6,575 nt of DNA from NCBI GenBank assembly GCA_003696125.1, contig RFHZ01000772.1, positions 1 through 6,575 of the forward strand, read 5' to 3'. Below are positions 1,273 through 6,575 of this stretch, piece after piece. The position numbers and the translations under genes are program-made. The notes beneath the pieces were generated by a model, which saw only the letters and a list, made by a program, of their open reading frames with translations, was not told the DNA's origin and ran no database searches. The number at the start of each line of letters is the position of its first letter. The first letter of the stretch is position 1. This DNA comes from Nitrospinota bacterium. Its GTDB lineage: Bacteria; Tectomicrobia; Entotheonellia; J063.

Positions 1273-2490
1273 ATGAAAAGGGTCCTCTTAGTGCTCATTG
1301 CCGGCCTGGTTACGCTCATATGCACCGCTGCGGTGACGGAGAAGAACGTGGCGGAGCGAGCACCCGTGGTCAACAGGCAGAATACGGAAAAGATCGTTAT
1401 CAGGGATTCCTCACGGAAATTATCCGGAAAGCTGGCCGTGGCTATTGCAGAGACACCGGTCGGCACCGGACTAGACCGGAGGGGAGGAAAAGCCTCCCAG
1501 GGGGTGGCGGGGATACCGGGTGCCCCACAACCGTCGTATCTCATTGCCGTACTCTGGGCCATATGGGTCGGATGGATATTCTCAACAATAGGCGCTTTTG
1601 GTGGAATCATGGCTGGAGTAGGACATATCACCATCTTTGGACTCGGGGATTATGCCAAAACCCTTCAGAAGACAGATCCCATGCTCAACAAACTGCTTAC
1701 GGACACGATAAGGGCTTCGAATCAATATCTGGTGGCCTTGGCTTCCTTGATCTCAACCTTCAACTTTTACCGGATGAAGCGAATTGTGCTGCCTTTAGGA
1801 GTTGCTCTCGGGACCGGGAGTCTTTTAGGAGCAGTGCTGATACCCTGGTTAACCGCTGGGAAGATACACGTCAGTCAGTACATAGGGTATTTTGGCATAG
1901 TCGTCCTCATCATCGGTGGTCTTCTCTTCTATGAAACGACCCCACGGGGGCAGCGGCGAAAGCAAAAAGCGCAAGAGACGGCAGCCGCGTTTCAAAAACG
2001 TATTAAAGAGAAGGGGATTACCCTAAAACAGGGGGTGCAGGTTTCGCATGTTGATTTCGAGGAGGTCTGTTTTCGATTTCTGGACACTGAATTCCGCTTT
2101 CACCCGATCTTGCCGGTCATCGGTGGTTTTCTTATTGCCGCATTATCTTCATTCCTGGGTGTGGGTGGAGGATTTCTCTATGTGCCGTTTATGACCAGTA
2201 TCGTTGGTTTGCCGATGTTCTTGGTTGCTGGCACTTCTGCACTTGCCGTTTTCCTCAGCATGGTCGTGAGTCTCTTCACCTATGTGGCGATCAAAGGGAC
2301 ATTGATAGACTGGTCATTGATCGGCGTAGAGATGGTCGGCGTATGTATCGGAGCCATGATTGGCCCCAGAACTCAGCAATATATTCCGGATATCTGGCTG
2401 AAGAGGATATTTGTGGTATTAGCCCTGTATGTGGGATTGCGATATTTCAGTAAGGGATTCTTTGGCCAGAGTTGGCTGCCACCAGAGTAA
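1273..2490 (+). CDS. TauE/SafE-family membrane permease (sulfite/anion exporter-like), long form with N-terminal extension
   Basis: This is a 405-residue protein with GGGAGAG just upstream of the ATG. Residues 1-20 form a signal peptide or first membrane anchor, followed by a polar, probably extracytoplasmic stretch (21-88). The permease part has two related halves. The first half (about 88-220) contains the glycine-rich GAFGGIMAGVGH. The second (about 277-395) contains FLGVGGGFLYVPFM, the best match to the TauE/SafE signature. A charged cytoplasmic loop of about 55 residues (221-275) joins them. Typical TauE/SafE proteins have about 250 residues, so the N-terminal extension and central loop mark a longer subfamily. 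Members export sulfite, sulfoacetate or related organosulfur anions across the inner membrane. The substrate here cannot be read from sequence. The next gene starts 16 bp downstream, which supports an operon. Confidence 0.88.
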   Translation: MKRVLLVLIAGLVTLICTAAVTEKNVAERAPVVNRQNTEKIVIRDSSRKLSGKLAVAIAETPVGTGLDRRGGKASQGVAGIPGAPQPSYLIAVLWAIWVGWIFSTIGAFGGIMAGVGHITIFGLGDYAKTLQKTDPMLNKLLTDTIRASNQYLVALASLISTFNFYRMKRIVLPLGVALGTGSLLGAVLIPWLTAGKIHVSQYIGYFGIVVLIIGGLLFYETTPRGQRRKQKAQETAAAFQKRIKEKGITLKQGVQVSHVDFEEVCFRFLDTEFRFHPILPVIGGFLIAALSSFLGVGGGFLYVPFMTSIVGLPMFLVAGTSALAVFLSMVVSLFTYVAIKGTLIDWSLIGVEMVGVCIGAMIGPRTQQYIPDIWLKRIFVVLALYVGLRYFSKGFFGQSWLPPE

Positions 2491-3201: not shown

Positions 3202-3305
3202 CTCTATCTTACTCCCAGAAAGAAAGGGATGGACAAACCCTGAACATAGAGAGTAGAATGGTTTATGCCAAAACATTACGGTGAACTTGTTAAGGAGGGA
3301 TGGAG

Positions 3306-3722
3306 ATGAAACGATTGGTACTTTGGGGAGTGGTAATGAGTCTGATAGTTTTTATGGCCACACCGGTTGCCTGGTCGGCCCAGCACCAGGCAGAACAGCC
3401 CTCACCTCCTGCCGGCCAGCCCCCGATGATGGGCAAAGGCGGGATGGGTCCAGGCATGATGGGGAAAGGGGGAATGGGACCAGGCATGATGGGTATGCCC
3501 ATGATGCCCATGATGGGACCGGGCATGATGGGTATGATGCCGATGATGATGTCGATGATGCATCAGATGCCGATGATGCAACAGATGATGGCGGCAACGC
3601 AGAACCCCAAGGTTATGGGGCGGATGCTCCAGATGCGGGGTGAGATGATGAAAGCCATCGGGGAGATCCTGATCAAATACGGGAAGATGATGACAGAAGA
3701 AGCGCAAAAGGAAGCCCAATAG
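3306..3722 (+). CDS. Exported methionine-rich protein, probable periplasmic soft-metal (copper/silver) binder
   Basis: The product has 138 residues. The ATG at 3306 lies 7 nt after AAGGAGG, while the in-frame ATG at 3300 is too close to that site. Residues 1 to about 24 form a signal peptide (basic MKR, hydrophobic core, likely cleavage near AWSAQ). A Pro/Gln-rich linker follows (25-40). The core at 41-95 has 27 methionines in 55 residues, in MMGKGGMGPG and MMxMPMM patterns, with 34 methionines in the whole mature protein. The C-terminal 40 residues are a charged, probably helical tail. Clustered Met thioethers bind Cu(I) and Ag(I) in CopA-, CusB/CusF- and PcoC-type proteins, so periplasmic metal binding is the likely role, although no known domain is recognised. 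It lies behind the sigma-54 promoter and 33 bp before the YHS gene. Low complexity makes family assignment uncertain. Confidence 0.85.
   Translation: MKRLVLWGVVMSLIVFMATPVAWSAQHQAEQPSPPAGQPPMMGKGGMGPGMMGKGGMGPGMMGMPMMPMMGPGMMGMMPMMMSMMHQMPMMQQMMAATQNPKVMGRMLQMRGEMMKAIGEILIKYGKMMTEEAQKEAQ
3426..3485 (+). repeat. Two 30-bp tandem repeats encoding MMGKGGMGPG
   Basis: Bases 3426-3455 and 3456-3485 encode the same ten residues and differ at a few, mainly third-codon, positions. The synonymous drift with preserved protein suggests that the peptide unit is under selection. Degenerate ATGATG units continue to about 3590. Confidence 0.85.
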
Positions 3723-3755
3723 ACGCTATTCTGAGCGAGAAAGGAGGTGAAGATC

Positions 3756-3929
3756 ATGGCAAAGGATCCGGTCTGCGGGATGGAGGTAGATGAGCAAAAG
3801 GCTGCCGCCAAGGCGGAATATAAGGGGCAAACCTACTATTTCTGTGCTCCTGGCTGCAAGGTGGCCTTTGAGAAAGATCCGGAGAAGTACCTCCAGTCCC
3901 AGGGGGGTGAACACCACCATCACCACTAA
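3756..3929 (+). CDS. Small YHS-domain protein with a natural C-terminal pentahistidine
   Basis: This is a 57-residue protein whose ATG at 3756 follows AAGGAGG by 8 nt. A GTG at 3747 in the same frame overlaps that ribosome site and is unlikely. Nearly the whole protein is a YHS domain: DPVCGMEVD (4-12), then KGQTYYFCAPGCKVAF (23-38) and DPEKYL (41-46). Conserved C7, C30 and C34 form the likely metal site. YHS domains occur alone or fused to copper P-type ATPases and are linked to metal, especially copper, handling. There is no signal peptide, so it should be cytoplasmic. The last residues are GGEHHHHH, a Gly hinge plus a His tail that could bind Ni, Cu or Zn. It pairs with the Met-rich exported protein, suggesting one binder on each side of the membrane. 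Confidence 0.9.
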   Translation: MAKDPVCGMEVDEQKAAAKAEYKGQTYYFCAPGCKVAFEKDPEKYLQSQGGEHHHHH

Positions 3930-3939
3930 TTCCACTGAT

Positions 3940-3976
3940 CAAGGGGAAAGTAGACCTATCGCCTACTTTCCCCTTG
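3940..3976 (+). terminator. Perfect 14-bp hairpin after the YHS gene, partial terminator or RNA-stability element
   Basis: The arms at 3940-3953 (CAAGGGGAAAGTAG) and 3963-3976 pair perfectly around a 9-nt loop. No T-run follows on either strand, so this is not a classical intrinsic terminator. It begins 11 bp after the YHS stop codon. It may protect the upstream message, pause polymerase, or lower expression of the DUF302 gene relative to the first two genes. Confidence 0.6.
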
Positions 3977-4002: not shown

Positions 4003-4077
4003 ATGGCGAGAAGTATCGCTGTATCTATGACTACCCTTGACTATAGATTTGGAAGGAGGAAGTTGCATGACTACTAA
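4003..4077 (+). CDS. Possible 24-residue leader peptide overlapping the DUF302 start
   Basis: An ATG at 4003 stands 7 nt after GAGGG, inside a purine-rich stretch, and opens a 24-codon frame (MARSIAVSMTTLDYRFGRRK, then LHDY). Its stop lies at 4075-4077, so it overlaps the next start codon at 4067 by 11 nt, a layout typical of translational coupling. The peptide is basic with no recognised motif. The good ribosome site and the overlap are the only support, and it could be fortuitous. Confidence 0.22.
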   Translation: MARSIAVSMTTLDYRFGRRKLHDY

Positions 4078-4468
4078 GGCATACGGTTTAGCAACGCGTA
4101 CAAACCTCCCCTACGAGGAGGCAGTGGAAAAAACTAAAACGGCTTTGCAAAAGGAAGGATTCGGTGTCCTGACCGAGATCGATGTTAAGGAGACGTTGAA
4201 AAAGAAGCTGAATGCCGATTTCCGCAAATATGTCATCCTGGGAGCCTGTAATCCTCCCCTGGCCTACCAGGCTCTCCAGACAGAGCTGGACATTGGGCTA
4301 CTCCTCCCCTGCAACGTGATCGTGTACGAAGAAGACGGGGGATCGGTCGTTTCTGCCATCGACCCGATCGCTGCCCTCCGGATCACGGAGAATCCGGCTC
4401 TCGAAGACCTGGCCCGTGAGGTGTACGAGAGACTGGAACGGGTCATCAAAGAGGTAAAAGGGGAATAG
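4067..4468 (+). CDS. DUF302 family protein
   Basis: The product has 133 residues and starts 7 nt after AAGGAGG. The in-frame ATG at 4037 has no such site. The sequence follows the DUF302 pattern closely: an N-terminal strand and helix with YEEAVEKTKTALQKEGFGVL (16-35), TEIDVKETLKKKL (36-48), YVILGACNPPLAYQAL (55-70) and IGLLLPCNVIVYE (76-88), ending in a helix (111-131). C61 and C82 are the recurrent cysteines of this alpha/beta fold. The domain occurs as a soluble single protein in many bacteria and archaea, often near redox, sulfur and metal genes, but its biochemical role is not established. There is no signal peptide, so it is probably cytoplasmic. It follows the YHS gene by 137 bp, across a hairpin, and ends before a clear terminator, so it is the probable last gene of the sigma-54 unit. 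Confidence 0.92.
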   Translation: MTTKAYGLATRTNLPYEEAVEKTKTALQKEGFGVLTEIDVKETLKKKLNADFRKYVILGACNPPLAYQALQTELDIGLLLPCNVIVYEEDGGSVVSAIDPIAALRITENPALEDLAREVYERLERVIKEVKGE

Positions 4469-4636: not shown

Positions 4637-4993
4637 ATGTGTCATCTTTTGCTGGCTTTACCGGTACTTGGACTCCCCCTCTTCTGGGTATTACCGCTTT
4701 CCATCGCCCTTCCGATTTATCTTGGCCTTTTGGGAGTGTCTCTGGTATTATACCGGGCCATCTGGCCAACGCTTCGACGACCAGCAATGACGGGGAGAGA
4801 AGGAATGATCGGGCAAGAAGGGGTCGTGGTGACGCCTCTACAGAACTATGGAAAGATCAAGGTAGGGAATGAGCTCTGGTTGGCTCGCGCAGGAGAACCC
4901 CTGTCTGCTGGTGATCGCGTGACCATTGTTCGCTTTGAGGGACTCACCGCTATTGTCCGGCCAAGCTCTGCACATCATGCTACTCCTGAGTGA
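4637..4993 (+). CDS. Short NfeD-like membrane protein (OB-fold domain)
   Basis: This is a 118-residue protein with GGAGAGGAG just upstream of the ATG. Two hydrophobic helices (about 3-20 and 22-40) are followed by a basic joint and a C-terminal domain. The domain reads GMIGQEGVVVTPLQNYGKIKVG (56-77), then ELWLAR (79-84), LSAGDRVTIVRFEGLTAIVRP (89-109). This is the NfeD C-terminal OB-fold pattern (GxxGxVxxxLxPxGxVxVxGExWxArs, GdxVxVxxxxGltLxV). Short NfeD proteins usually sit beside a stomatin/flotillin (SPFH) gene and act in membrane-protein quality control. No SPFH gene is visible here, and the membrane part is shorter than usual. It is separated from the DUF302 gene by a terminator, so it probably has its own promoter, which I could not locate. 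Confidence 0.85.
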   Translation: MCHLLLALPVLGLPLFWVLPLSIALPIYLGLLGVSLVLYRAIWPTLRRPAMTGREGMIGQEGVVVTPLQNYGKIKVGNELWLARAGEPLSAGDRVTIVRFEGLTAIVRPSSAHHATPE

Positions 4994-6455: not shown

Positions 6456-6575
6456 TCATCTCCCTCCATTGTTCCCGTTGCGTTTTTCCCACTGCTTGCG
6501 GAGGAAGAGGGGAAGGGTGGCACGGAGATCGAGCCAGAGGGAGAAGAGGATCGGGACCAGGACCAGGGTAAAGAG
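6456..6575 (-). CDS. RND-type efflux permease, C-terminal end (N-terminus lies outside the window)
   Basis: Reading leftward from the right edge, 39 codons are open before TGA at 6456-6458. They encode LFTLVLVPILFSLWLDLRAT followed by a basic tail (RKQWEKRNGNNGGR). The pattern TLxxLxxVPxLYxL plus a short polar tail is that of the last membrane helix of RND permeases (AcrB/CusA superfamily). Only this helix is visible, so the subfamily and substrate cannot be assigned. A heavy-metal type would suit the metal-binding genes in cluster B. It is on the same strand as the 414-residue gene, 167 bp upstream of it. Confidence 0.7.
   Translation of the reverse strand, partial: LFTLVLVPILFSLWLDLRATLPLFLRKQWEKRNGNNGGR

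Follow-up and report, generated by a model that had tools for sequence, protein, structure and literature searches.

A candidate copper-handling gene cluster encoding an exported methionine-rich protein and a standalone YHS-domain protein in a Nitrospinota bacterium

The stretch of DNA analysed here, which we call the window, is 6,575 nucleotides long (assembly GCA_003696125.1, contig RFHZ01000772.1, deposited as a Nitrospinota bacterium). The window apparently represents one short contig, so that neither its assignment nor its wider neighbourhood is certain; the source genome is metagenome-assembled, with 94.8% completeness, 8% contamination and 990 contigs. The main features are as follows.

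1273 to 2490, plus strand: TauE/SafE-type permease (PF01925, E 2.4e-25), upstream of MetR
3230 to 3259, plus strand: possible sigma-70-type promoter upstream of MetR (10/12 matches; weak evidence)
3306 to 3722, plus strand: MetR, an exported Met/Gly/Pro-rich protein of 138 aa
3756 to 3929, plus strand: standalone YHS-domain protein of 57 aa (PF04945), with D4/C7/C30/C34 and a C-terminal His5
3940 to 3976, plus strand: hairpin of 14 bp with a 9-nt loop and no T-run, between YHS and DUF302
4067 to 4468, plus strand: DUF302 protein of 133 aa without a signal peptide (PF03625, E 2.5e-27)
4637 to 4993, plus strand: NfeD-like membrane protein (PF01957, E 5.2e-19)

An earlier note on this DNA had singled out positions 3306-3929 as encoding an exported Met-rich protein and a cytoplasmic YHS protein, and this interval does cover both genes, MetR at 3306-3722 and YHS at 3756-3929. 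The MetR start is assigned to ATG 3306, with AGGAGG 7-8 bp before it, and the stop lies at 3722; the in-frame ATG at 3300 was dismissed because AGGAGG is too near to it. The N-terminus is signal-peptide-like (MKRLVLWGVVMSLIVFMATPVAWSA), with the signal peptide spanning about residues 1-25, and is followed by a Met-rich stretch at about residues 28-77 (low confidence) and a conserved C-terminal helix at about residues 101-137. MetR contains 37 Met in total, 34 of them in the mature part (113 aa), which has no Cys and two His. The densest 55-residue segment, residues 41-95, holds exactly the 27 Met that the note had counted. An AlphaFold2 model, weak in being built from three sequences only, assigns low pLDDT to the greater part of residues 28-77 and predicts a helix with fair confidence at residues 101-137. 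No match to the LTXXQ, PF13801, Spy/CpxP or Metal_resist profiles was obtained in a Pfam search, profile searches found no DUF305 domain, and searches of Pfam, NCBIfam and the PDB gave no similarity to SilE or PcoE. A match to SelK_SelG (E 0.046) fell under the cut-off and was judged to be a composition-driven chance hit.

The YHS gene follows MetR on the same strand after 33 bp, and it is plausible that the two lie on one transcript. Its preferred start is ATG 3756, which has AGGAGGT upstream, rather than GTG 3747. The protein matches PF04945 with E 4.8e-20 and 71.7 bits, against a curated cut-off of 30.3, and has the three Cys (7, 30 and 34) and five terminal His (GGEHHHHH) ascribed to it in the note. 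Together with Asp 4, these Cys make up a D-x2-C and C-x3-C ligand set in which the spacing of D4/C7/C30/C34 equals that of D178/C181/C204/C208 in a Mycobacterium phlei protein. The His tail was dismissed as a conserved YHS feature for the sampled bacteria, as none of about 25 bacterial YHS proteins has one; a Thermococcus YHS protein does have a His-rich tail. YHS was present in 26 of the 27 genomes examined, and a YHS query against viral contigs found none.

Most standalone YHS loci examined have CopA within a few kb, and the same holds for loci L160, L201, L204 and L202. A CopA gene of the window's own genome beside the MetR-YHS pair was ruled out, since CopA is on contig C814 and the pair is on C163, the window contig. 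This CopA has its own N-terminal YHS domain and two HMA-like regions. A membrane-anchored cupredoxin-like gene, identified by eye, lies directly after CopA both on C814 (L157, 2988-3359, minus strand) and in genome G125 (L204, 14422-14799, minus strand).

Downstream of YHS, the hairpin at 3940-3976 is strong (-23 kcal/mol, z -5.2). It was not accepted as a terminator, as it lacks a T-run and was not called by prediction; because it precedes DUF302, co-transcription of DUF302 with YHS is doubtful. The DUF302 protein scores 95 bits against PF03625, for which the curated cut-off is 23, and its relatives in the PDB are 1j3m (TT1751; E 2.4e-23) and 1q9u (APC35924). Cys61 and Cys82 lie in CNP and LPC motifs and are shared by the relatives aligned. 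None of the sources found assigns a function to DUF302. The NfeD-like protein has a relative with 41% identity directly after CopA in genome G003 (L160), and the TauE/SafE permease is a possible member of the cluster, the order TauE-HMA-YHS being seen in Chlorohelix. At the right edge of the contig, positions 6458-6575 (minus strand) encode a 39-aa C-terminus resembling the tail of an RND permease; it was rejected as CusA, having neither a Pfam match nor a credible PDB match. At the other edge, positions 1-200 contain the repeats GGTCAGGGTTTCCTGGGCCTGG and GGGCCAGGGTGTCCATGCGG, probably a minus-strand repeat coding for coiled coil.

Among five genomes examined from the window's phylum, the MetR family is present in the window's genome alone. 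Relatives turned up in one 'Deltaproteobacteria' MAG and, within the Rokubacteria phylum (that of a 'Rokuibacteriota' MAG), in 21 of 95 genomes; searches of plasmids and viral contigs found none. All keep a helix at the C-terminus with a sequence like RMLQMRGEMMKAMGEVLxKHGK, and the Met/Gly/Pro stretch varies in length, being nearly lost in L053; the sponge-like part is thus the variable part of MetR and the helix the conserved part.

The earlier note had proposed looking for co-occurrence beside copper ATPases or CusA, and relatives of MetR do flank CopA, Cus pumps and MCO-Sco genes. CopA is directly upstream at L051; the gene order is multicopper oxidase, Sco, MetR at L047, RND, CusB-like, MerR, MetR at L050 and CusB-like, MerR, MetR at L048. 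At L060 the order is YHS, Rieske, TlpA, MetR, SHOCT, YHS-HMA-CopA, and at L041, in a Rokubacteria-phylum genome, it is class III cyclase-YHS, DUF411, MetR. The cyclase gene of L041 (4426-5085, minus strand) encodes a class III cyclase domain with a C-terminal YHS, which is the architecture of the M. phlei copper sensor. Of the 23 loci of MetR relatives, 6 have neighbouring copper genes (CopA, Cus-type RND, MCO-Sco or DUF411-YHS-cyclase), compared with none of 40 loci chosen at random, for the most part in these same genomes (p 0.0015); the size of the effect is approximate given the few controls and gene references taken partly from the test loci. When each reference's own locus was left out, copper neighbours were found at 6/23 MetR loci versus 1/40 random loci (p 0.008). 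No strict copper or metal gene was recognised at the remaining 17 of the 23. DUF302 was near MetR-family genes in none of 22 other genomes, which rules it out as a constant partner of this family.

The association of DUF302 is with YHS and CopA. Among 297 genomes from the phylum to which G098 belongs, at least 8 have DUF302 and YHS no more than 10 kb apart, where 0.85 would be expected (P 3e-6, kinship ignored), and YHS is present in 53 of 64 genomes with DUF302 compared with 131 of 233 others (odds ratio 3.8, p 8e-5, kinship again ignored). This link to YHS and CopA is a result of the present analysis. The note's suggestion that DUF302 is possibly a third part of the system finds support from gene context for YHS and CopA and none for the MetR family.

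The note had named the lack of a conserved neighbourhood as grounds for refutation, but such a neighbourhood was found: the combination of YHS, DUF302 and exported Met-rich genes reappears near CopA in both the window's class and a second phylum, and more loosely in haloarchaea. A region of ~9 kb in G003, of the window's class (L160), reads YHS-TlpA-YHS::MarR-CopA-NfeD-SHOCT-Rieske-rhodanese-propeller-Met-rich Spy-like-DUF302, and its DUF302 is 35% identical to that of the window. The second phylum provides CopA-YHS-Met-rich-DUF302 as consecutive genes in G157 (L201); CopA-cupredoxin-Met-rich-YHS in G125 (L204), followed by a second Met-rich Spy-like gene, DUF302, MCO and MerR; and CopA-cysteine synthase-YHS-Met-rich in G378 (L200), with an RND pump downstream and DUF302 5 kb off. 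Exported Met-rich genes occur at 3 of the 11 YHS/DUF302 loci taken from this phylum and at none of 40 random loci (p 0.008). Domains resembling Spy/Metal_resist were recognised in the Met-rich partners of L160, L204 and L201, and in the searches made the Met-rich proteins of the G003, G157, G125 and G378 clusters were not relatives of MetR, so that what recurs is a kind of protein and not one family. Among archaea, a Thermococcus peptonophilus plasmid carries DUF302-HMA-YHS, its YHS having the His-rich tail mentioned above, and haloarchaeal plasmids carry a looser version (YHS, regulator, exported Met/His protein, SHOCT, DUF302, thioredoxin, plastocyanin) in several near-identical copies that count as few events.

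Several other genes at these loci deserve mention. At L160, positions 7788-8435 (plus strand), between TlpA and CopA, encode a fusion of a YHS domain with a MarR-type regulator, which is a candidate for a copper sensor built on YHS. A cysteine-synthase-like gene, identified by eye, lies between YHS-CopA and the standalone YHS at L199 (6146-7087) and L200 (11192-12133), which suggests a link to thiol supply. Beside YHS, L200 (12431-13132) and L201 (8361-8999) each encode an exported protein with GMGPGMMG repeats and a CPWCG motif; the two have in common a C-terminal domain of about 60 aa with no Pfam match. On an Azospirillum plasmid (L194, 6007-6956), DUF302 is followed directly by DUF305 (CopM family), with Spy/CpxP downstream; DUF305 would there be a further exported partner of DUF302 that binds copper.

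Gene content, domains and the repeated occurrence beside CopA and further copper genes are matters of observation; from them we infer the identity of the metal, its binding and hand-off, and co-regulation. We consider it probable that this is a copper-handling cluster in which a periplasmic Met sponge and a cytosolic YHS chaperone feed Cu(I) export, and the gene neighbourhood, as read from sequence, supports a role in copper, as does the ligand set that YHS shares with a Cu-activated cyclase of M. phlei. Exported MetR would act as a disordered periplasmic sponge in which the Met thioethers of the Met-rich stretch hold Cu(I); the conserved helix at its C-terminus may anchor or oligomerise the protein. 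In the cytosol YHS would be a Cu chaperone or buffer, binding the metal through D4/C7/C30/C34, and its His tail could form an extra copper site that adds capacity in this species. YHS would hand its copper to a CopA-type ATPase, and the CopA pump with its own YHS domain (C814) would link both sides of the membrane. The two-Cys DUF302 is likely to be a cytosolic accessory. Several results count against this reading: the 17 MetR loci at which no strict copper gene was recognised, the variable Met-rich linker, the absence of DUF302 near MetR-family genes in 22 other genomes, Met-rich partners elsewhere that mostly resemble MetR in kind and not in sequence, the location of CopA on a different contig of a genome with 8% contamination, and the presence of DUF302 and TauE in sulfur modules too. 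Chance alone is disfavoured, as the MetR family, its C-terminal helix and the YHS domain all occur elsewhere. The note's overall interpretation survives in its recurrent neighbourhood and copper context; the His tail proved not to be conserved, and of the metals named, copper is indicated by gene context, whereas silver and nickel determinants were not seen.

For DUF302 and TauE there is a real alternative, namely that the cluster answers stress from reactive sulfur (persulfide or sulfite): TauE would export sulfite, DUF302 and the thiols of YHS would handle persulfide, and the Met-rich protein would be a sink for oxidants or sulfur. DUF302 is found in sox clusters (PMC5037610) and, with a CsoR-type regulator, rhodaneses and TauE, in Arthrobacter SUL modules (PMC6305408); both occurrences favour this explanation, as do the TauE/SafE gene upstream in the window, a Bradyrhizobium DUF302 gene beside TauE, rhodanese and DoxX, and the rhodanese of L160. 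A sulfur role may also be compatible with copper, because thiols and copper detoxification overlap. We nevertheless regard it as unlikely to explain the cluster, since rhodanese, persulfide dioxygenase and CstR/CsoR genes were not recognised in the window and the relatives of YHS and of the Met-rich protein keep company with CopA, Cus, MCO and Sco rather than with sulfur genes.

Copper might also be delivered to cuproenzymes and not detoxified, with MetR donating Cu to Sco/CuA or multicopper oxidases and YHS supplying a CtpA/CopA2-type ATPase. This would suit the MCO-Sco-MetR order at L047, the TlpA and Rieske genes near YHS/MetR at L060 and L160, and the cupredoxin-like gene adjoining CopA at L157 and L204. 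We consider it very unlikely, since other relatives lie close to Cus-type RND pumps, MerR regulators and DUF411, which indicate resistance, and no oxidase subunit was recognised beside MetR/YHS genes. Even less probable is that MetR is a Spy/CpxP-like or Met-sulfoxide-cycling protein of envelope stress and oxidant scavenging, with no specific metal function and with YHS as an unrelated neighbour: Met residues scavenge oxidants, and Spy/Metal_resist-like domains are present in the Met-rich partners of L160, L204 and L201, but MetR itself matched neither Spy nor LTXXQ and an exported Met-rich gene adjoins standalone YHS repeatedly in unrelated phyla, also beside copper pumps.

The copper-handling reading may have a wider form, which we put forward tentatively and judge somewhat less likely to be right than wrong: YHS, an exported Met-rich protein and DUF302 would constitute a widespread, unnamed three-part copper (or copper-sulfur) module of bacteria and archaea, in which YHS chaperones would have the two-Cys DUF302 as their Cu(I)/thiol partner in the cytosol and unrelated families would freely replace one another as the exported Met-rich part. 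No function is agreed for either DUF302 or standalone YHS proteins, widespread as both are, and their reproducible link to CopA and exported Met-rich proteins offers both a testable role in copper handling. The data also suggest that, in bacteria, a thiol chaperone in the cytosol and a thioether sponge in the periplasm form a pair on either side of one pump, and that the sponge evolved independently several times. In the open-access literature, subscription journals being outside the scope, no paper was found that combines YHS with DUF302, or methionine-rich with YHS domain and copper. As the parts (a YHS/TRASH chaperone, a Met sponge) are of known kinds and no joint description was found, the note's term 'undescribed' applies to the combination only.

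The closest known systems resemble single parts of the cluster. The archaeal copTMA / copRTA cluster encodes CopM, a small TRASH/YHS copper-binding protein (PMC5328820, PMC7830388), so that there too a CopA ATPase is accompanied by a standalone Cys-based protein of the TRASH/YHS type. In Thermococcales CopR, a TRASH domain is known to be followed by a His stretch, which may be compared with the His tail of the YHS protein described here. It differs in that an exported Met-rich gene and DUF302 are not described there, whereas in the window no regulator was found and CopA is on another contig. SilE / PcoE is a periplasmic metal sponge (PMC5008109), and MetR resembles it in being small, exported, Met-rich and, as predicted by the weak model, perhaps largely disordered. 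However, SilE relies on His as well as Met motifs and is found alongside sil pump genes, whereas MetR is poor in His and its C-terminal helix is conserved, and no sequence similarity between the two was detected. Synechocystis CopM (DUF305), a periplasmic Cu(I) binder with a KD near 3e-16 (PMC4335983), is an exported Met-rich resistance protein beside a Cus-type system; MetR shares its export and Met-richness but is not a DUF305 protein and has more Met, in GMMG/PMM runs. Finally, the YHS adenylyl cyclase of Mycobacterium phlei is activated by Cu2+, with D178, C181, C204 and C208 as proposed ligands (PMC4626032). Although the window YHS is standalone, with a His tail and no catalytic domain, its D/C/C/C spacing is identical to that of the cyclase, and a similar cyclase-YHS gene is found at L041.
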